Shown: positions 2,847 to 16,530 of the stretch, in pieces | Layout of the letters: every line of letters begins with the position of its first letter | Position numbering within the stretch: the first letter of the stretch is position 1 | Position numbers and translations under genes: made by a program | IMG/VR virus record: IMGVR_UViG_3300047562_000303 | Location: 1 to 30,180 of that record | Source: a virus | Length of the DNA: 30,180 nt | Reading direction: 5' to 3' (one strand) | The notes under the pieces: generated by a model | What the model was told of the DNA's origin: nothing | Seen by the model: the letters and a program-made list of their open reading frames with translations, nothing else | Database searches by the model: none

Positions 2847-3201
2847 CGATGACCACGCGCTCTATGCGCTGGAACGTGATTGGCTGACCGTCTGCGCCAG
2901 TGTGCTCCAGTCGGTCCGTCTCGCGCCAACCTGCCTGCGTCTTCAAGTAAAACATCATGCACGCAGAGTCGCCTGATTGCGCCTTTTGAAGCAAGCCACG
3001 CGCTACCGATCCGATAGCTTTTGCCTTGCCCCTTTTATAGCGTTCAAGAATGTCAGGGTCGCGCTCCATCATTGCTGTGAATGTGTTGCGCACGATTCCG
3101 AAATAGTCCGCGATTTGTTCCTTGGTCAAGACCGACGCCAAGGCTTCAACCTGGATCTTCTGTTCTTCAGTCAGTTGCTTTGGCTTTCTGCCTGCTCTCA
3201 T
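2821..3201 (-). CDS. Terminase small subunit
   Basis: A 126-residue protein with an N-terminal helix-turn-helix (TKEQIADYFGIVRNTFTAMM, about residues 26-45) and a segment GDSACMMFYLKTQAGWRE near residues 82-99 that is typical of phage small terminases. This subunit recognises the packaging start site and loads the large subunit. The start ATG overlaps the stop of the upstream ParB/methyltransferase gene in an ATGA arrangement, and the 3' end overlaps terL by 26 bp, so the three genes look translationally coupled. Assignment rests on the HTH, size and position immediately before terL. Confidence 0.9.
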   Translation of the reverse strand: MRAGRKPKQLTEEQKIQVEALASVLTKEQIADYFGIVRNTFTAMMERDPDILERYKRGKAKAIGSVARGLLQKAQSGDSACMMFYLKTQAGWRETDRLEHTGADGQPITFQRIERVVIDAKTEDED

Positions 3202-4463
3202 GGCTTTAGCCTCTCTGCTGATAGTTGCTCGAAAGTTTGACCGGATGATTCTAAAACGGCTTGCTTGCCGGTGAAGTCCTGCCAGCGTTTAATAATTACG
3301 TCGCAGTATTTCGGGTCGAGTTCCATCATGCGGCATTCGCGGGCGGTCTTTTCGCAGGCGATAAGGGTGCTGCCGCTGCCACCGAATAGATCAAGCACGA
3401 TTTGGTTGTTGCGGCTGCTTTTCTCAATGGCGTGCTGCGGCACTGCTACGGGCTTTTGTGTCGGGTGCCCAGTTTTTTCTCCGCCTTGTTGCTTGTTGAT
3501 GCGCCAAGTGCTTGGCGAATGCTGTCCATTTTCTGCGTTGAAAACGTGCTTGCCACGCGTTGCATATGGGATCAATTCTGTATCCCAGGTCCAATGCCGC
3601 TTTGTCAGCGAGGGCATTGGATCTGGCTTACTCCAAACGCAGAACGAGTGATAATCGGACCATTCCTTCATCCACGCCCAAATCCTGCCAGCTAGATGAT
3701 GCAATGTGCAGATATAAACTGCGCAATCCTTCGCCATAACTGCAAGCGCACAATTTAACGGTGCTTCAATTTGAAAATCTTTATCCCAATCCGCTGCCAT
3801 AAGGTCTTTGTGTGCTTTTGAGACGTTTTGAGCGACGCCTTTGTTTTCACTTCCAACATTATACGGCGGATCGGTGAACACCATGTCAGCCTGCTGTCCA
3901 CCCATCAACTTTTCAACCGCATCAATGCTCGTGCTATCCCCACACATCAGCCGATGATTTCCCAACACCCACACGTCACCCTCGACTGTGACCGGCTGCT
4001 CTGGCACGTCTGGAACGTCGTCCTCATCCGTCAAGCCTGCTGTAATTTCTACCGGCTTGAGCGCGTCCAGTTCCTCGTCACTAAATCCCGTCAAGCCAAG
4101 ATCGAAACCAAGTTGATCAAGATCGGCAATCTCAAGCCCTAGTAACTCCTGATCCCATCCTGCATTCAACGCCAGTTTGTTGTCTGCGATGACGTAGGCT
4201 CGCTTCTGCGCGTCGGTCCAGCCTGATGCAATCAGGACCGGCACCTCGGATAGTGCTAGCTTGCGTGCTGCCATGACGCGACCGTGACCCGCGATGATCT
4301 GGCCTGACTCGTCCACCAGTACCGGCGTCGTGAAGCCCCATTCCTTGATGCTGGCTGCAATCTGCGCGACCTGCTCGTCGCTGTGCGTGCGCGAATTCCT
4401 GGCGTAAGGGATCAATGCCTCAACGGGCATCTTCTGGATAGGATCAGTTGGTGATGGTTTCAT
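3198..4463 (-). CDS. ParB-like domain fused to beta-class DNA methyltransferase
   Basis: A 421-residue fusion. Residues about 10-130 form a ParB/Srx-like domain (ALIPYARNSRTHSDEQVAQI, then IIAGHGRVMAARKL and YVIADNKLALNAGWD). The C-terminal half is a DNA methyltransferase with motif IV DPPYNVG near residue 197 and motif I DLFGGSGST near residue 356. Motif IV preceding motif I is the beta-class order, and DPPY usually means N6-adenine methylation, with N4-cytosine possible. ParB-methyltransferase fusions are common in phages and mobile elements; the ParB part may help site choice or cleave. The ATG has AGGG just upstream (CAGGGAAAC). It is the first gene of the packaging operon and shares an ATGA junction with terS. 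No partner restriction enzyme is adjacent. Confidence 0.94.
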   Translation of the reverse strand: MKPSPTDPIQKMPVEALIPYARNSRTHSDEQVAQIAASIKEWGFTTPVLVDESGQIIAGHGRVMAARKLALSEVPVLIASGWTDAQKRAYVIADNKLALNAGWDQELLGLEIADLDQLGFDLGLTGFSDEELDALKPVEITAGLTDEDDVPDVPEQPVTVEGDVWVLGNHRLMCGDSTSIDAVEKLMGGQQADMVFTDPPYNVGSENKGVAQNVSKAHKDLMAADWDKDFQIEAPLNCALAVMAKDCAVYICTLHHLAGRIWAWMKEWSDYHSFCVWSKPDPMPSLTKRHWTWDTELIPYATRGKHVFNAENGQHSPSTWRINKQQGGEKTGHPTQKPVAVPQHAIEKSSRNNQIVLDLFGGSGSTLIACEKTARECRMMELDPKYCDVIIKRWQDFTGKQAVLESSGQTFEQLSAERLKP

Positions 4464-4853: not shown

Positions 4854-7319
4854 TCAAAACGGCGCTATCTCGTCGGGTTCATCGTGGAATTGTCGGACAA
4901 TCTGGCGCGCTTGCCCGTCAGTGACGTTTGGCGTCCTGTAGATGTAGTGATTGACCTTCGTTTTGGCGATTCTGATGCGCCGTCCCTCGATCAATTCATA
5001 GCCCAAACGCTCCATGATTTTGCTCAAGGCGCGCTTCTGTGGCAGCGGGTCGTTCTCCATGTCGCACAGATTCCGCAACCAGGTAACGTCCACCACGTCC
5101 TTGCTGATGATCGCGCAGTCGTGCTTATCGATAGCGTCCTCAACCTCATTCTGCTCTGGTGAGACATTCATCTCGCGCATGATCGCCTTCGCTTTTGTCT
5201 CTGGCGCTCGTCCTTGTGGCCTGAAGTCTGGAGACACTTTCCGGTCCATGAAGTACCGCCGCAGCGCGTCGGGTCGCTTCTGGCTCAAAGCAAACAGCCG
5301 GTCAAAGTAGCGCGACGCTTCCTCGCGTCCACCTGTGGCGGCGAACAGTTGCTCCTGGGTCTGAATGTCCGAGAAGATGACCGCATAACGCCGGTCGCCT
5401 TCGACCAGCGGAATCGCGTCTTTGTGGTTGCTGAGAAAGATGAAGCTTGAGAAGTTGGCGACCACCCGATGATCGCGGCCCTTTTCCTCAATCTGAATGG
5501 TGTCGTTGGTGATAAAGGGTTTCAGCCGGTCGATGACTTCCCATTTATTTTGACCGCTGATCCTTATTTCTTCGACCGCTACCACAAGCGAGCCATGCGC
5601 CCATGAGGTAAAGCGTCCGCTGATCGCTGATGCTTCCACCGTCTTCACGGCATCGCGCATTACATATTGGAGGGTATTGACGACATACGACTTGCCGATC
5701 CCTTCCGCGCCTTGGATGAACAGCGCCCAATTGATCCGCTTGCCTGGATTGTTGATGACGTAGGTCATCCAGTCCAGCACGATTCCGCGCTCCCCTGCGT
5801 CCGAGAACAGCATCGCCATTTGACCTTCAAACAGCGCGACCAGTTCAAGCGCCTCATCGTCCCACACGTCCAGAGGCTCCACGCGCCGGTCAATGTAAGA
5901 GTTGACCATCAGTTTGTCTTCGTACTCGAACAGGTCAGCGGCGCCTGGAAAGTAGAAGTCGTCAACGACCGTCTGCAAGCGCATGTCCACCAGGGCATAG
6001 TCCGCTGCACGCTTCTCTGCCATGATGACCTCGGGCATCCGGTCGAACTTGGCGTTGAATGCCTCGCGCTTGATTCCATAGCGTTTGTCTATGCTGTAGA
6101 ATAGCGTCGGTCTCTCGATGTATACCCAATCCTTGAGCCATGCCGGGCGCTGAACTTCCCCGTCAGCGTCCGGCTCCCCAACCACCTCGCGCTTAACCTT
6201 CCCTGGTGCAAAGGCTCTCTTGATCTGCCCGAGCGCGACACCTGCACCCTTCGCCCAAATGTCCCAGACCTCTTTTGCAATCATCTCGCGCAAGTCTGGC
6301 GGCAACTGACGCACGCCCAAACGCCCCACGCGCTCTTTCAGGCGTTGGTACGCCTCCACCCCATCAACGCTTCGCGCATCCTGCAAAACGTCCTCAAAGA
6401 GCGTCTGGTCGCCTACCGCTGCAACTTCACGCAACCGCCCACCAGCGGCCGCTATCACGTAGTCAAAGCGCACCGGCTTGGTCATGGACCGCTGCCCGAA
6501 CGAATGCCACTTCCGTTTGATCTCGTCCCCATCGAACTCGACCCGCCGACCCTCGGCGTTGCATAGTTCGCGCTCGTCGCACTGTCGAGACCATGCGGCC
6601 CACATATTCGCGCCACGCACCGCGCCTCCGACCTGGTGGTGTATCGCCATCCCGACTTTGACCCACTTGTCGTAAGTCGTCAGGTACTCATCCCCAAGTC
6701 GGTCCAGGTACTCCTGAATCTCCGCGTCCCCAATCCCATCCAACGGCTGCGAAGCGATAGCGACCTCAAGCCCTGAGAGTCCATCATCGCCAAAACCTTC
6801 ATCCTCAACGACCGCCACGCCCGACTTGCCGTTGATCGCCTCCACCGCTTCCATCGGCAACACCGGAAAGTCTTCCTCCCACAGCGCATCCGGCAAGCCC
6901 AACACGGTCAAGTCTTCGTAGCCATCCCCTGAGCATATCCATCCCTTGCCCGTAGCCCTGGTGTCAAAGCCTGACACGCCTAACAGTGAGTCGCCCTGGC
7001 GCACCACCGCACCCTCTGGCAGTACAAAGCAATAATGCTCACCACCCGACACCGTCCGCTGAATCCTGGCGCCGTCCCAATCCAACGTCACGCCCAAGGC
7101 CGCGTCAATCTGATCTGTCGTCGTACCTTTGTAGGCGTCAACGTCCACCACCACACGGCCTGCCGGGATACCAAGGCCAAGGTTCTCTGACCGATCAATC
7201 TCCGCCGCTGTGGCCTCGTAGCCTTGCCATGACCCGCGAACCGCTGGCCGCTTGTTCCATTTCTTTTTCGTCTTGTCCCAGACCTTCACTACCGGGAAAA
7301 TTTCACGTCCTGTTTTCAT
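4854..7319 (-). CDS. Primase-polymerase with C-terminal SF3-like helicase (NrS-1-type replication protein)
   Basis: An 821-residue multidomain replication protein. The N-terminal PrimPol domain shows the acidic metal site VVVDVDAY near residue 62 and the signature SGGEHYCF further on. A PriCT_2-like linker follows (EYLTTYDKWVKVGMAIHH). The C-terminal helicase domain has Walker A GAEGIGKS near residue 535, Walker B LVVAVEEI and a sensor/arginine-finger stretch FIFLSNHKDAIPLVEGDRRY. It probably synthesises primers and unwinds DNA at the origin. A start at 7340 is possible, but ATG 7319 is preferred because it forms an ATGA overlap with the upstream Cro-like gene and has AGGACAGGAC as ribosome site. 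It lies directly after the repressor gene, as replication genes do in lambdoid phages. Confidence 0.93.
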   Translation of the reverse strand: MKTGREIFPVVKVWDKTKKKWNKRPAVRGSWQGYEATAAEIDRSENLGLGIPAGRVVVDVDAYKGTTTDQIDAALGVTLDWDGARIQRTVSGGEHYCFVLPEGAVVRQGDSLLGVSGFDTRATGKGWICSGDGYEDLTVLGLPDALWEEDFPVLPMEAVEAINGKSGVAVVEDEGFGDDGLSGLEVAIASQPLDGIGDAEIQEYLDRLGDEYLTTYDKWVKVGMAIHHQVGGAVRGANMWAAWSRQCDERELCNAEGRRVEFDGDEIKRKWHSFGQRSMTKPVRFDYVIAAAGGRLREVAAVGDQTLFEDVLQDARSVDGVEAYQRLKERVGRLGVRQLPPDLREMIAKEVWDIWAKGAGVALGQIKRAFAPGKVKREVVGEPDADGEVQRPAWLKDWVYIERPTLFYSIDKRYGIKREAFNAKFDRMPEVIMAEKRAADYALVDMRLQTVVDDFYFPGAADLFEYEDKLMVNSYIDRRVEPLDVWDDEALELVALFEGQMAMLFSDAGERGIVLDWMTYVINNPGKRINWALFIQGAEGIGKSYVVNTLQYVMRDAVKTVEASAISGRFTSWAHGSLVVAVEEIRISGQNKWEVIDRLKPFITNDTIQIEEKGRDHRVVANFSSFIFLSNHKDAIPLVEGDRRYAVIFSDIQTQEQLFAATGGREEASRYFDRLFALSQKRPDALRRYFMDRKVSPDFRPQGRAPETKAKAIMREMNVSPEQNEVEDAIDKHDCAIISKDVVDVTWLRNLCDMENDPLPQKRALSKIMERLGYELIEGRRIRIAKTKVNHYIYRTPNVTDGQARQIVRQFHDEPDEIAPF

Positions 7320-7513
7320 GTCCTGTCCTGTGTCTCGCATTCGCTGATCTCCACTGCCTTGAAGTGTCCCGCCGTTAGGCGCTCAATCTGTATAGCCCTT
7401 TTTGGTGGAATTTTCCCGTCGAGCAACCACTGAAACACCGCCTGCGGCGACACGCCAAGCGCCCTTGCTGTTTCGCTCTGTCCCCCAAACCAACTCACAA
7501 CATCATTAACCAT
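7316..7513 (-). CDS. P22-Cro-like / YdaS-like repressor
   Basis: A 65-residue DNA-binding protein. The sequence NDVVSWFGGQSETARALG followed by VSPQAVFQWLLDGKIPPKRA matches the layout of P22 Cro (short helix, FG, HTH with A-A-L-G turn, SQW-like recognition helix, then I-P and a LTAG stretch). Such proteins bind operators at the early divergent promoters and turn down early transcription. The frame extends 32 codons upstream, but ATG 7513 is chosen because GGAGG sits four bases before it and the HTH begins right after. The gene is transcribed leftward, upstream of the primase-polymerase with an ATGA junction. Likely autoregulated through the palindrome at 7569-7589. Confidence 0.85.
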   Translation of the reverse strand: MVNDVVSWFGGQSETARALGVSPQAVFQWLLDGKIPPKRAIQIERLTAGHFKAVEISECETQDRT

Positions 7514-7532
7514 ATGTCCTCCGATTTTCTGC

Positions 7533-7561
7533 TTGAAACCGTCCCGAGCATAGGCTACTCT
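7533..7561 (+). promoter_or_regulatory. Rightward early promoter candidate for the replication cassette
   Basis: On the plus strand TTGAAA (7533-7538) and TACTCT (7556-7561) are separated by 17 bp, placing a start near 7568 and the first ATG at 7624. The -35 lies within GCTTGAAAC (7531-7539), a repeat of the operator half-site. This promoter would face the leftward one and overlap it, so the two would interfere. The -10 is weak, so confidence is moderate. Confidence 0.4.
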
Positions 7562-7575
7562 CCAAACTGTTTCAA
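7547..7575 (-). promoter_or_regulatory. Leftward early promoter for cro-like and primase genes
   Basis: On the minus strand TTGAAA (7570-7575) and TATGCT (7547-7552) are separated by 17 bp, a sound sigma-70 spacing, giving a start near 7540 and a leader of about 27 nt to the ATG at 7513. The -35 lies inside the palindromic operator at 7569-7589, so binding there would block RNA polymerase. Confidence 0.65.
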
Positions 7576-7589
7576 GCCTAGCTTGAGAC
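7569..7589. promoter_or_regulatory. Palindromic operator, probably for the 65-residue Cro-like protein
   Basis: GTTTCAAGC (7569-7577), a CTA centre and GCTTGAGAC (7581-7589) form a 21-bp near-perfect palindrome (8 of 9 positions paired). A third half-site GCTTGAAAC is at 7531-7539, the exact inverse of the first arm, and a weaker CTGAAAC is at 7600-7606. The placement over the leftward -35 fits a repressor operator. Confidence 0.7.
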
Positions 7590-7623
7590 TCAACTAGAAC
7601 TGAAACCACAAGGAAACGCCAAA

Positions 7624-13082: not shown

Positions 13083-13116
13083 CGAAGACCAACATCACTT
13101 GAGGAAAGACGCACGC

Positions 13117-13296
13117 ATGATAGCACCCAAACGCCACTACCGCCACATGGACCACGCCAAGGCCGAAAGAATTCGGGAACTGTACTTCAGCCGGAAGATG
13201 AAACAGGCTGAGCTTGCGGAGGTGTTCGGGCTGCGCCAGGGATCGGTGAGTCGGATTCTTTCTGGTCAGGTGTGGCAAACTCCGCCAGCACCTTGA
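13117..13296 (+). CDS. Small helix-turn-helix protein
   Basis: A 59-residue protein. Its core, HAKAERIRELYFSRKMKQAE followed by LAEVFGLRQGSVSRILSG, is a clear HTH of the resolvase/sigma-like type: helix, turn with GLRQ, then recognition helix SVSRI. Related small proteins occur in many phage early regions and are thought to regulate transcription. ATG 13117 is chosen; GAGGAAA lies upstream, though at a rather long spacing. A frame extension to a TTG at 13099 is less likely. The last 110 bases overlap, on the opposite strand, the end of the second Cro-like gene, so at least one of the two has an overlapping tail. Confidence 0.75.
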   Translation: MIAPKRHYRHMDHAKAERIRELYFSRKMKQAELAEVFGLRQGSVSRILSGQVWQTPPAP

Positions 13297-13447
13297 ACTC
13301 GACCACCTGCACCCGGTCGCCCATTTGCTCAACGAAGATATCGCGCTTGTCTCGGATCATGTACGTGATAGCTGCCGGACTCATGCGCATACGGCGAGCC
13401 GTCACGTTGCGCCCGTGGAGGTGTACATAGTCTGAGAGCGTCATCAT
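13187..13447 (-). CDS. Lambda-Cro-like repressor
   Basis: An 86-residue protein whose first 60 residues follow lambda Cro: TLSDYVHLHGRNVTARRM, then the recognition helix SPAAITYMIRDKR, then DIFVEQMGDRVQVVEFKVLA, comparable with the TLKDYAMRFGQTKTAKDLG, INKAIHAGRKIF and beta-strand parts of lambda Cro. Residues after about 62 are a Pro/Ser-rich tail absent from lambda Cro and encoded where the gene overlaps the opposite HTH gene. Starts at 13447 or 13444 both have GAGGAAAAA just upstream. It would repress the divergent promoters at 13478-13523. It is unrelated in sequence to the other Cro-like protein at 7316-7513. Confidence 0.82.
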   Translation of the reverse strand: MMTLSDYVHLHGRNVTARRMRMSPAAITYMIRDKRDIFVEQMGDRVQVVEFKVLAEFATPDQKESDSPIPGAARTPPQAQPVSSSG

Positions 13448-14308: not shown

Positions 14309-14539
14309 ATGAAACGCCGAGGCGCCACACGCATCGCCACAAGGGAAGAAAGAATCCGTAACAGGTGGCTGGTCGTCCTGGCTACCCTGTCCATCGGCGG
14401 ATTCCTAGCCGCTGGCGGAGACGACCCGCAAATGGAAGTGGACATATACTGCTCGATGGTCGAGCTGTATAAGTCGAGCAACGGCGACGCCGGCTGGCCT
14501 GCGTACAAGGGGGAAGCCATATGCGCCCCCTCGAAATAG
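14309..14539 (+). CDS. Small single-pass membrane protein
   Basis: A 76-residue protein with a very basic N-terminus (MKRRGATRIATREERIRNRW), one membrane segment at about residues 20-36 (WLVVLATLSIGGFLAAG) and a C-terminal part with Cys near 50 and 73 that would face the periplasm (MEVDIYCSMVELYKSSNGDA). The positive-inside rule predicts N-in, C-out. AGAGG lies upstream of the ATG. It overlaps a 25-codon membrane peptide gene. Small membrane proteins of this layout are common in phage early operons, for example in superinfection exclusion, but function here is unknown. Confidence 0.72.
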   Translation: MKRRGATRIATREERIRNRWLVVLATLSIGGFLAAGGDDPQMEVDIYCSMVELYKSSNGDAGWPAYKGEAICAPSK

Positions 14540-14598
14540 TGTGGTTGATCGGGCTTTACATTGCAGCCGGGTATCTATTGGTGGAGGGGTTTAAATGA
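14521..14598 (+). CDS. 25-residue membrane peptide
   Basis: A very short gene from ATG 14521 to TGA 14596-14598. The peptide has a short charged start (MRPLE), a hydrophobic core (IVWLIGLYIAAGYLL) and ends VEGFK, a plausible single membrane helix. AGGGGGAAG lies four bases before the ATG, a strong ribosome site. It overlaps the end of the previous gene by 19 bases and shares an ATGA with the PAPS-reductase-like gene, so it fills what would otherwise be a gap in a tightly packed operon. Function unknown. Confidence 0.6.
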   Translation: MRPLEIVWLIGLYIAAGYLLVEGFK

Positions 14599-15542
14599 TC
14601 TTGGTATCTGTAAGTGGAGGCAAAGACAGCACTGCGAGTTTGCTGCTCGCCCTTGAGCAATCAGAGTCCCCCGTGTCTGCGATGTTTTGCGACACAGGGA
14701 ACGAACACGAAGCCACATATGAATATGTGGACTATCTCGAACAGAAGACCGGCGTCAAGATCGCCAGGCTAAAGGCAGATTTCACGGACTGGTGGTGGAG
14801 ACGCAGGGACTACGTCAGAGACAAGTGGCCCGAAAAGGGTGTTGACCAAGCGAATATCGAGCGTGTCTTGGCCGTGTTCGAGAAGGGGCCAACAGGAAAT
14901 CCTTTCCTTGACCTTTGCATCATCAAGGGTCGGTTCCCGAGCCGCATGGCGCAGTTCTGCACGCAGTACCTCAAGCGCGAAGTTGCCGACAAGCACACGA
15001 TGGAAATGCTGAAGGGTCAGAAGTTCCTCGAGTCGTGGCAAGGCGTCCGCGCGGACGAAAGCGCCAGTCGCGCCAAGCTTCCGCAGAGAGACGTTGAGTT
15101 CGGCCAGTGGGAGCCTGAGAAAGAAGGCTTCCTGATCTTCCGTCCAATCTTGCATTGGAATGTTGAGCAGGTCTTCGCCCAACACCGCAAACACGGCGTG
15201 GAGCCGAATCCTTTGTACAAGCAAGGAATGGGTCGCGTGGGCTGTATGCCCTGTATCAACACGAACAAGCGCGAACTGTTCGAGGTTGCGTCGAGGTTCC
15301 CAGAGCACATCGACAGGATCGCGGAATGGGAACTTGTCGTGACGCAAGCCGCCAAGCGAGACAGCTCCACGTTCTTCAAGTACCCATCGAAAGACCCCAA
15401 CACAGACTTTCACGCGCTCGGCAACATTTACAAGAAGGTCGAGTGGAGCAAGACCGGCAGAGGCGGCCACCAGTGGGATATGTTCAAGCTGATGGAGCAA
15501 GATGTTAGCGCCTGTTCATCAACCTATGGGCTGTGTGAATGA
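14595..15542 (+). CDS. PAPS reductase/PP-loop ATP pyrophosphatase family protein
   Basis: A 315-residue protein of the adenine-nucleotide alpha-hydrolase superfamily. The PP-loop SVSGGKDSTAS is at residues 5-15, followed by SAMFCDTGNEHEATYEYVDY, which matches the PAPS reductase second strand. Later features are RFPSRMAQFCTQYLKRE near 114-130, WQGVRADES near 149-157, and GRVGCMPCINTNKREL near 213-228 with a CxxC. Additional Cys near the C-terminus (ACSSTYGLCE) may help bind metal or an Fe-S cluster, as in DndC and some sulphur-transfer enzymes. True assimilatory sulphate reduction is unlikely in a phage; DNA or RNA sulphur modification or nucleotide chemistry is possible. GGAGGGG precedes the ATG. 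Confidence 0.87.
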   Translation: MILVSVSGGKDSTASLLLALEQSESPVSAMFCDTGNEHEATYEYVDYLEQKTGVKIARLKADFTDWWWRRRDYVRDKWPEKGVDQANIERVLAVFEKGPTGNPFLDLCIIKGRFPSRMAQFCTQYLKREVADKHTMEMLKGQKFLESWQGVRADESASRAKLPQRDVEFGQWEPEKEGFLIFRPILHWNVEQVFAQHRKHGVEPNPLYKQGMGRVGCMPCINTNKRELFEVASRFPEHIDRIAEWELVVTQAAKRDSSTFFKYPSKDPNTDFHALGNIYKKVEWSKTGRGGHQWDMFKLMEQDVSACSSTYGLCE

Positions 15543-15742
15543 GCACGTCAAGGTGTTGGTCTTGCGGGTCTGAAGACCTGGCACTGATGCGCACCCTTGA
15601 CCTTAAATACTGCTGCTGCGGCCAGTGGATGCCGTGGCGGCTTGAGCCAGGCCAAGCGCCGGTAGGGTACGCCGTACCGCCAACTAAGAAGACTGAGGAA
15701 AGCAAAGATGAGCAAGCCGAGAGATTGGATATCGACGGGTGA
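15539..15742 (+). CDS. Small zinc-ribbon-like protein
   Basis: A 67-residue protein. CWSCGSED (Cys 6 and 9) and KYCCCGQWMPW (Cys 25-27) form a CxxC...CCC arrangement typical of a small zinc ribbon, followed by a Pro-rich and then acidic/lysine tail. It may be a metal-binding partner of the preceding PP-loop protein, with which it shares an ATGA junction. The 3' end overlaps the next gene by 35 bases. Function is not known. Confidence 0.7.
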   Translation: MSTSRCWSCGSEDLALMRTLDLKYCCCGQWMPWRLEPGQAPVGYAVPPTKKTEESKDEQAERLDIDG

Positions 15743-16028
15743 AGCCGCGAAGATTCTCATGATGAGTAAAAACGTCTTGAGGGCTACTTACTACGGAAAG
15801 GGGGCAGTCTGTGGGTTGGTGCCCGAGAAGGATGCCAATGGTTGGCACCTGAAGTGGGACAAGTTCGAGGTGATCAAAGCGTCGATTCGCAGACAAGCAG
15901 ATTGCACAGTCATGCTTCGGGCGCTGGAGGGTGTGACGGACTGGCTTGGTGAGCAAAGGATTCAGACAGATGACCCACGCATCGAATTTGCTTATGAGGT
16001 TTTGCAGGAACTGGAGGGGAAATACTGA
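15708..16028 (+). CDS. MerR/excisionase-type HTH protein
   Basis: A 106-residue protein. Residues 7-30 (WISTGEAAKILMMSKNVLRA) match the start of a winged-helix HTH of the MerR/excisionase type (the GEAAKIL-M-S pattern). The rest is a mixed helical region with one Cys, ending in a helix (RIEFAYEVLQELEGKY). TGAGGAAAGCAAAG precedes the ATG, a leader like those of 13117 and 13828. It overlaps the previous gene and its stop shares a base with the DUF3310 start. Could be an excisionase-like factor or regulator; no integrase is in the window. Confidence 0.68.
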   Translation: MSKPRDWISTGEAAKILMMSKNVLRATYYGKGAVCGLVPEKDANGWHLKWDKFEVIKASIRRQADCTVMLRALEGVTDWLGEQRIQTDDPRIEFAYEVLQELEGKY

Positions 16029-16240
16029 TGGATAACGTAAACAGTCCGAAGCATTACACCAGCGGAACCATCGAATGCATCGTCGCCATTCAAGCCGCCC
16101 TGGGTGACGAGTTCAAAGGATTCCTTCGCGGTAACGTGATCAAATACCTGTGGCGCTACCAGGACAAGGGAGGCGTGGAGGACTTGCGCAAAGCGAGGTG
16201 GTACTTGGAACGGCTTATCAAAGAGGAAACGGAAGCATGA
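16028..16240 (+). CDS. DUF3310 protein (T7 gp1.7-related)
   Basis: A 70-residue protein with the DUF3310 signature: VNSPKHYTSGTIECI, then FKGFLRGNVIKYLWRYQDKG and GVEDLRKARWYLERLI. This domain forms the core of T7 gp1.7, a nucleoside/nucleotide kinase, and is frequent in phage nucleotide-metabolism regions. The TGATG junction with the upstream gene and the ATGA junction with the MazG-like gene show tight coupling. A role in nucleotide metabolism is likely; whether the isolated domain is active is not known. Confidence 0.92.
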   Translation: MDNVNSPKHYTSGTIECIVAIQAALGDEFKGFLRGNVIKYLWRYQDKGGVEDLRKARWYLERLIKEETEA

Positions 16241-16530
16241 ACGACCTGATACAGAACACAATCGAATGGGCGCGCCTTAAAGGCATCCTGGACAATGGGA
16301 CCCGCGAGGGTCAAGCCTGGAAGACCATCGAAGAAGCGAACGAACTGCTTAAGGCGGTCCAGGAAAACAACGACGCCGAAGTCATTGACGCCATAGGCGA
16401 CGTGATGGTGACAATCATCATTCAAGCCCACATGAATGGCTTGCGCGTGGAGGACTGCCTGAGGACTGCTTACAACGTGATTGCCAAGAGAACCGGACGC
16501 ATGGAGGGGGGAGTGTTCGTCAAGGATTAA
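16237..16530 (+). CDS. MazG-like nucleotide pyrophosphohydrolase
   Basis: A 97-residue protein of the all-alpha NTP pyrophosphatase type. The metal-binding motif is visible: EEANELLKAV (ExxE), then AEVIDAIGDVMVTI (ExxxD), separated by about 15 residues as in MazG/MazG-like enzymes. These hydrolyse (d)NTPs to monophosphates and can lower unusual nucleotides or ppGpp. ATG 16237 (MNDLIQN) is chosen from the ATGA junction with DUF3310; a longer reading from 16150 would overlap that gene almost fully. Last gene of the rightward operon. Confidence 0.9.
   Translation: MNDLIQNTIEWARLKGILDNGTREGQAWKTIEEANELLKAVQENNDAEVIDAIGDVMVTIIIQAHMNGLRVEDCLRTAYNVIAKRTGRMEGGVFVKD

Follow-up and report, generated by a model that had tools for sequence, protein, structure and literature searches.

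Known PP-loop sulphur enzymes and their phage relatives

SspD and DndC are sulphur-inserting enzymes of DNA phosphorothioation systems, where they belong to the multi-protein Ssp and Dnd machineries that include the DNA-targeting partners SspB, SspC, DndD and DndE. Fe-S PP-loop proteins that thiolate tRNA, such as TtcA and TtuA, are also well established. On the side of the sulphur donor, the desulphurase SspA binds SspD (PMC7188994), and DndA can be replaced by IscS (PMC10853773). A kinship of phage proteins with these enzymes has already been noted: the PAPS-reductase homologues of mobile elements have been described as kin to the phosphorothioation enzymes and as deserving study (PMC11437467), and matches to SspD (PADLOC, E 1e-11 to 1e-15) have been reported in methyltransferase-encoding Sinorhizobium phiLM21-like prophages, where they are described as isolated hits of an affiliation that needs verification (PMC12429752). 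The annotation as PAPS reductase is used in many phage papers, for example in PMC10434257. In phage 186, the corresponding gene orf84 is cited as non-essential and of unknown function (PMC10269572), as also stated in the phage record, and the literature searched for a tested function of the phage family gave nothing beyond this non-essentiality.

Here we consider one such gene in a virus record of 30,180 bases, analysed as a whole and referred to as the window, in which profile scans of the open reading frames recognised portal, terminase, primase, DNA polymerase and head-closure genes. What is added to the previous work is a six-cysteine signature, a contrast with CysH in the PP-loop, a measured enrichment of methyltransferases beside the gene and the placement of its small companion genes outside the system.

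Organization of the locus

The first-pass annotation had proposed a PAPS-reductase-like gene coupled by ATGA junctions to a membrane peptide and a zinc ribbon and followed by an HTH gene, and the four genes and their junctions can be read directly from the sequence (Table 1). Indeed, the stop codon of the 25-aa peptide overlaps the start of the PP-loop ORF in an ATGA, the same arrangement joins the PP-loop stop to the start of the 67-aa ORF, and the HTH-like ORF overlaps the 67-aa ORF by 35 nt. Such ATGA junctions are ordinary translational coupling within a compact accessory region.

Table 1. Features of the PP-loop locus in window coordinates
Feature	Position	Strand	Evidence or remark
Hydrophobic membrane-like peptide, 25 aa	14521..14598	+	ORF; encodes MRPLEIVWLIGLYIAAGYLLVEGFK
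PP-loop PAPS-reductase-like protein, 315 aa, PHROG 424	14595..15542	+	Pfam PF01507, phrog_424, AlphaFold2, dN/dS
S-G-G-K-D-S codons (residues 7-12), ATP-pyrophosphatase signature, lacking in CysH	14613..14630	+	Sequence; comparison with DndC, SspD and CysH
C108 (LDLC) to C122 (QFCT)	14916..14960	+	Invariance in 79 sequences; alignment
GCMPC, residues 216-220, candidate [4Fe-4S] ligands C217/C220	15240..15254	+	Alignments
CSSTYGLCE tail, C307/C314, candidate sulphur-carrying pair	15513..15539	+	Invariance in 79 sequences; alignment
Zinc-ribbon-like protein, 67 aa, CxxC...CxC	15539..15742	+	Sequence pattern; relatives only in L002/L173, L003 and L177
HTH-like protein, 106 aa	15708..16028	+	ORF; without profile match
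DUF3310 gene	16028-16240		Directly after the HTH-like ORF
MazG-like gene	16237-16530		After the DUF3310 gene

When compared with the closest relative (L002 and L173, which are one contig, with a PP-loop protein 95% identical to that of the window), the PP-loop gene has a dN/dS of 0.04, the zinc-ribbon gene of 0.32 and the peptide of 0.27, the last value coming from 25 codons, part of them shared with the preceding gene. The peptide, the zinc ribbon and an upstream 76-aa ORF together range from 0.17 to 0.32. Because of these values, the PP-loop, peptide and zinc-ribbon ORFs are probably real, translated genes.

The two genes downstream of the enzyme retain their earlier descriptions only in part. 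The HTH-like ORF is present, and since no Pfam, PHROG, NCBIfam or PADLOC profile matches its product, the label MerR-type is an assignment by eye. Similarly, the 67-aa ORF described as a CxxC...CCC zinc ribbon exists, with the pattern CxxC...CxC, and scans of the same four profile collections gave no confident match, a curated zinc-ribbon profile included. In tblastn searches against phages the HTH-like protein had no match and the zinc-ribbon protein a single weak one, in a Shewanella phage (E 5e-3) where no PP-loop gene is annotated within 3 kb. Separately, a megablast search against phages returned no match.

Family and conserved motifs of the PP-loop protein

The PP-loop protein is a member of PHROG 424, a large family of phages and prophages, whose profile it matches over its full length (residues 2-314, E 2.7e-68), in addition to a match to Pfam PF01507 (E 1.1e-27). 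The gene is present in one copy in this phage and is common elsewhere, since scans confirmed at least 538 viral candidates and at least 495 in bacterial genomes. Relatives include orf84 of phage 186 (44% identity, full-length homology) and proteins of phage P2, Stenotrophomonas phage S1, Serratia phage Parlo and Acidovorax, Agrobacterium and Pseudomonas phages. Members such as 186 orf84 and the P2-like 'cysH' have the same cysteine layout and the same PAPS-reductase annotation as the window protein, whereas the position of the gene differs: in 186 and P2 it immediately precedes replication gene A or the equivalent of that gene, a coupling with gene A being noted in the 186 record, and in the window it is flanked by the peptide and zinc-ribbon genes. 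In a plasmid collection, 1,198 records, mostly conjugative, match the PP-loop protein, only 6 of them covering at least 80% of it.

The extra cysteines that had been noticed in GCMPC and near the C-terminus are real and represent a family-invariant hallmark. In particular, C108, C122, C217, C220, C307 and C314 are invariant in 79 of 79 aligned non-redundant members and, with fragments included, are kept in 91 to 94 of 94 members, and the C-terminal CSSxYGLCE is found across the collected relatives. The AlphaFold2 model of the protein has a mean pLDDT of 94.2 and a pTM of 0.90. The family was then aligned with two DndC, two SspD and six CysH sequences, an alignment of distant proteins that is reliable at the motifs, unsure between them and least sure at the C-terminus. 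C122 corresponds to the Fe-S cysteine of CT-x-x-LK (WCT) in DndC and SspD and to the CC pair of CysH, while C217/C220 align with GCxxC of DndC, SspD and CysH and with CxxC of APS reductase 2goy; Fe-S ligand roles have been described for the aligned cysteines of DndC and APS reductase (PMC12193691). The CSSxYGLCE tail, which lies in the least sure part, is placed opposite the CxxC at the C-terminus of SspD and the catalytic ECGLH of CysH.

Comparison with SspD and DndC

The profiles (PADLOC) that come nearest are those of SspD and BrxP, from systems of the DNA phosphorothioation type. SspD is the top PADLOC profile, with E 2.7e-19 and 67.9 bits over two stretches, a score to be read against the 401-456 bits of the two best whole-genome SspD matches. 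In the other direction, a profile of the phage family gives 76-83 bits to SspD, 42-51 to CysH and 37-41 to DndC. The likeness to SspD extends to the SGGKDS loop, the CT-x-x-LK cysteine, GCxxC, a C-terminal cysteine pair and a similar length. However, the C-terminal pair is C-x6-C in the phage protein and C-x2-C in SspD, and the phage family, unlike SspD, has the additional invariant C108 in a PTGNPFLDLC segment. DndC, like the phage protein, has an unbroken PP-loop and has Fe-S cysteines in corresponding positions (PMC12193691), but its insert bearing Cys262/Cys273 and its long C-terminal region are missing from the phage protein, which scores 15.4 bits with the NCBIfam DndC model TIGR03183, below the cut-off of 290.4. 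Among the scanned ORFs of the window, neither SspA, SspB and SspC nor homologues of DndD and DndE were recognised.

The protein thus combines an intact SGGKDS with cluster-type cysteines at CT-x-x-LK and GCxxC, the marks of the SspD/DndC class. Judged by its sequence, it resembles the sulphur-inserting enzymes SspD and DndC rather than a true PAPS reductase, with a layout nearest to SspD, and as to its class it is likely to be an Fe-S, ATP-dependent sulphur transferase rather than a reductase.

Genomic neighbourhood of the family

Over 93 non-redundant loci, the only strongly recurrent class of neighbour is the DNA cytosine-5 methyltransferase. Of 120 genes directly beside the PP-loop gene, 10 belong to this class, compared with at most 1 among 91 genes at a distance of four to six places. 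The comparison is approximate because the near genes were the 120 longest out of 186 and the distant ones a random sample from which short genes had been dropped. Genes were called by a simple longest-ORF rule. The same 120 neighbours include two D12, two MT-A70, one Dam and one DpdA among the other modification genes. In a profile-based test, 16 methyltransferase genes were found, all on the same strand, 8 of which are directly adjacent to the PP-loop gene when 2.2 are expected (P 5e-4), or 3.4 if only same-strand positions are considered (P 0.008). On a maximum-likelihood tree, the methyltransferase-adjacent cases are scattered among relatives without one, and the association has therefore arisen repeatedly. 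Such clustering may reflect a shared accessory-gene zone instead of a shared pathway.

In the window, the genes adjoining the PP-loop gene are not methyltransferases, and a ParB-domain DNA methyltransferase is found 10 kb away (3198-4463, minus strand). A partnership with this gene is not supported, as the closest relative has the PP-loop gene without that methyltransferase: the matching place (L173, 3291-3707, with terminase, p2821 and primase) has no ParB-methyltransferase. As a separate observation, the immediate neighbour of one homologue is DpdA, of deoxypurine-in-DNA modification, and DUF4406 genes are found next to four.

Alternative readings of the enzyme

As a true PAPS/APS reductase, the protein would boost host sulphate assimilation. 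It has in common with CysH the PF01507 domain, GCxxC and the C-terminal cysteine motif, but the CysH and APS-reductase models of NCBIfam give 13-66 bits overall against cut-offs of at least 154 (65.8 vs 154, 43.5 vs 235, 42.8 vs 165 and 33.6 vs 254), and SGGKDS, which is intact in the phage family, DndC and SspD, is degenerate in 6 of the 6 CysH sequences compared, which differ from the phage protein also by their CC pair. In addition, the six tested hosts bearing a copy all have their own CysH above cut-off, so that the phage gene does not replace CysH. All in all, a reductase is very improbable, and the name under which the gene is listed in hundreds of phages and prophages, the models 186 and P2 among them, is probably wrong; the label 'auxiliary sulphur-metabolism gene' misleads ecological studies. 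An improbable reading, too, is that of a QueC-like enzyme that would change a free nucleotide or precursor base in an ATP-dependent manner, feeding hypermodified DNA or consuming a signal. The weak similarity to QueC over the PP-loop (PF06508, E 1.1e-4) points to it, as do the single DpdA (deazaguanine-in-DNA) and the four DUF4406 genes near homologues and, in the window itself, the nearby DUF3310 and MazG genes; however, the QueC similarity spans only about 60 N-terminal residues, one DpdA per 120 neighbours is no association, and the conservation of the cysteine pair at the C-terminus speaks for a role in handling sulphur. The first-pass annotation had also suggested the depletion of a signalling nucleotide, and no finding points that way.

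For a sulphur transferase, the main rival to a DNA target is tRNA, a base of which could be thiolated in the manner of TtcA or TtuA, with the effect of tuning translation or evading tRNA-cutting defences. The precedent of these thiolases favours an RNA target, together with a motif set that fails to separate DNA from RNA substrates and with the lack of a recognised DNA-targeting partner among the scanned window ORFs. On the other hand, the nearest proteins by profile belong to systems that modify DNA by phosphorothioation, and the enriched neighbours are genes of DNA modification and not of tRNA modification, so an RNA target seems unlikely. DNA is the best-supported target because cytosine methyltransferases adjoin the gene more often than by chance. 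The sulphur-enzyme reading of the first-pass annotation is supported in part, as the likeness to SspD and DndC over a true PAPS reductase and the adjacency of methyltransferases fit a transfer of sulphur to DNA as counter-restriction.

Proposed mechanism

Family membership, the complete PP-loop, the six cysteines that never vary and the excess of neighbouring methyltransferases are observed here, and from them we infer a cluster, a chemistry, a sulphur donor, a DNA target and a benefit. The protein would act on its own as an ATP-pyrophosphatase and sulphur transferase of the SspD type rather than as a PAPS reductase. ATP bound by SGGKDS would activate a substrate oxygen by adenylation, beside the active site a putative Fe-S cluster would be held by C122, C217, C220 and, as the fourth ligand, probably C108, and the C307/C314 pair would carry sulphur supplied by a cysteine desulphurase of the host, for instance IscS. 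Phage DNA would be the most probable substrate, and the most probable gain would be a shield against host restriction, in parallel with the DNA methyltransferases often encoded beside the gene. Taken in full, from SspD-like sulphur transfer to phage DNA and restriction escape, this reading is proposed tentatively. Rather doubtful is its extension to a widespread single-gene phage system that would put sulphur in DNA, in the backbone or in a base, with host IscS and no multi-protein Ssp/Dnd machinery, and, jointly with phage methyltransferases, would conceal the DNA of the phage from restriction. If sulphur were indeed transferred to DNA or RNA, the gene would provide a simple and testable phage modification in well-known laboratory phages.

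The small companion genes

The membrane peptide, the PP-loop enzyme, the zinc ribbon and the HTH regulator had been read in the first place as a coupled unit acting jointly in takeover or counter-defence. The ATGA coupling and the overlaps favour such a unit, and the genes recur together in L002/L173 and, apart from a clear homologue of the peptide, in L003, whose PP-loop protein is 73% identical. These two closest relatives are the only ones in which the companions accompany the PP-loop gene, as well as the only ones with a relative of the HTH-like gene, and the three companions are absent from every other homologue locus examined. Moreover, the order differs: in L003 the zinc-ribbon gene is placed ahead of the PP-loop gene, and the short hydrophobic frame that may correspond to the peptide ends in an ATGA overlap with the zinc ribbon instead, while in L002 an extra gene separates the zinc ribbon from the HTH gene. 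The zinc ribbon can also occur apart from the enzyme, as in L177, a relative by DNA polymerase, where it is located at 6538-6744 (CPQCG...CSDC...PWNLDEGQKP) in a 7.4-kb stretch with no PP-loop gene. Relatives at a greater distance are without the enzyme too, L179 and L182 having no PP-loop gene in stretches that reach about 8 kb past the helicase gene. Comparison of neighbourhoods thus reveals free shuffling for the four-gene unit and not for the enzyme, and changes of order, absence elsewhere and a zinc ribbon without enzyme largely refute the unit, a joint function being highly improbable. The small companion genes are loosely associated neighbours in the same accessory stretch, outside the mechanism.

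Two further features of these accessory stretches were observed. In L002, the ORF between the zinc ribbon and the HTH gene (7136-7606) encodes 156 aa, is acyltransferase-like by eye and is absent from the window. Before the PP-loop gene of the window, two small ORFs that are HTH-like by eye overlap on opposite strands (13187-13447, minus; 13099-13296, plus), and this pair at 13099-13447 is possibly a regulatory switch.
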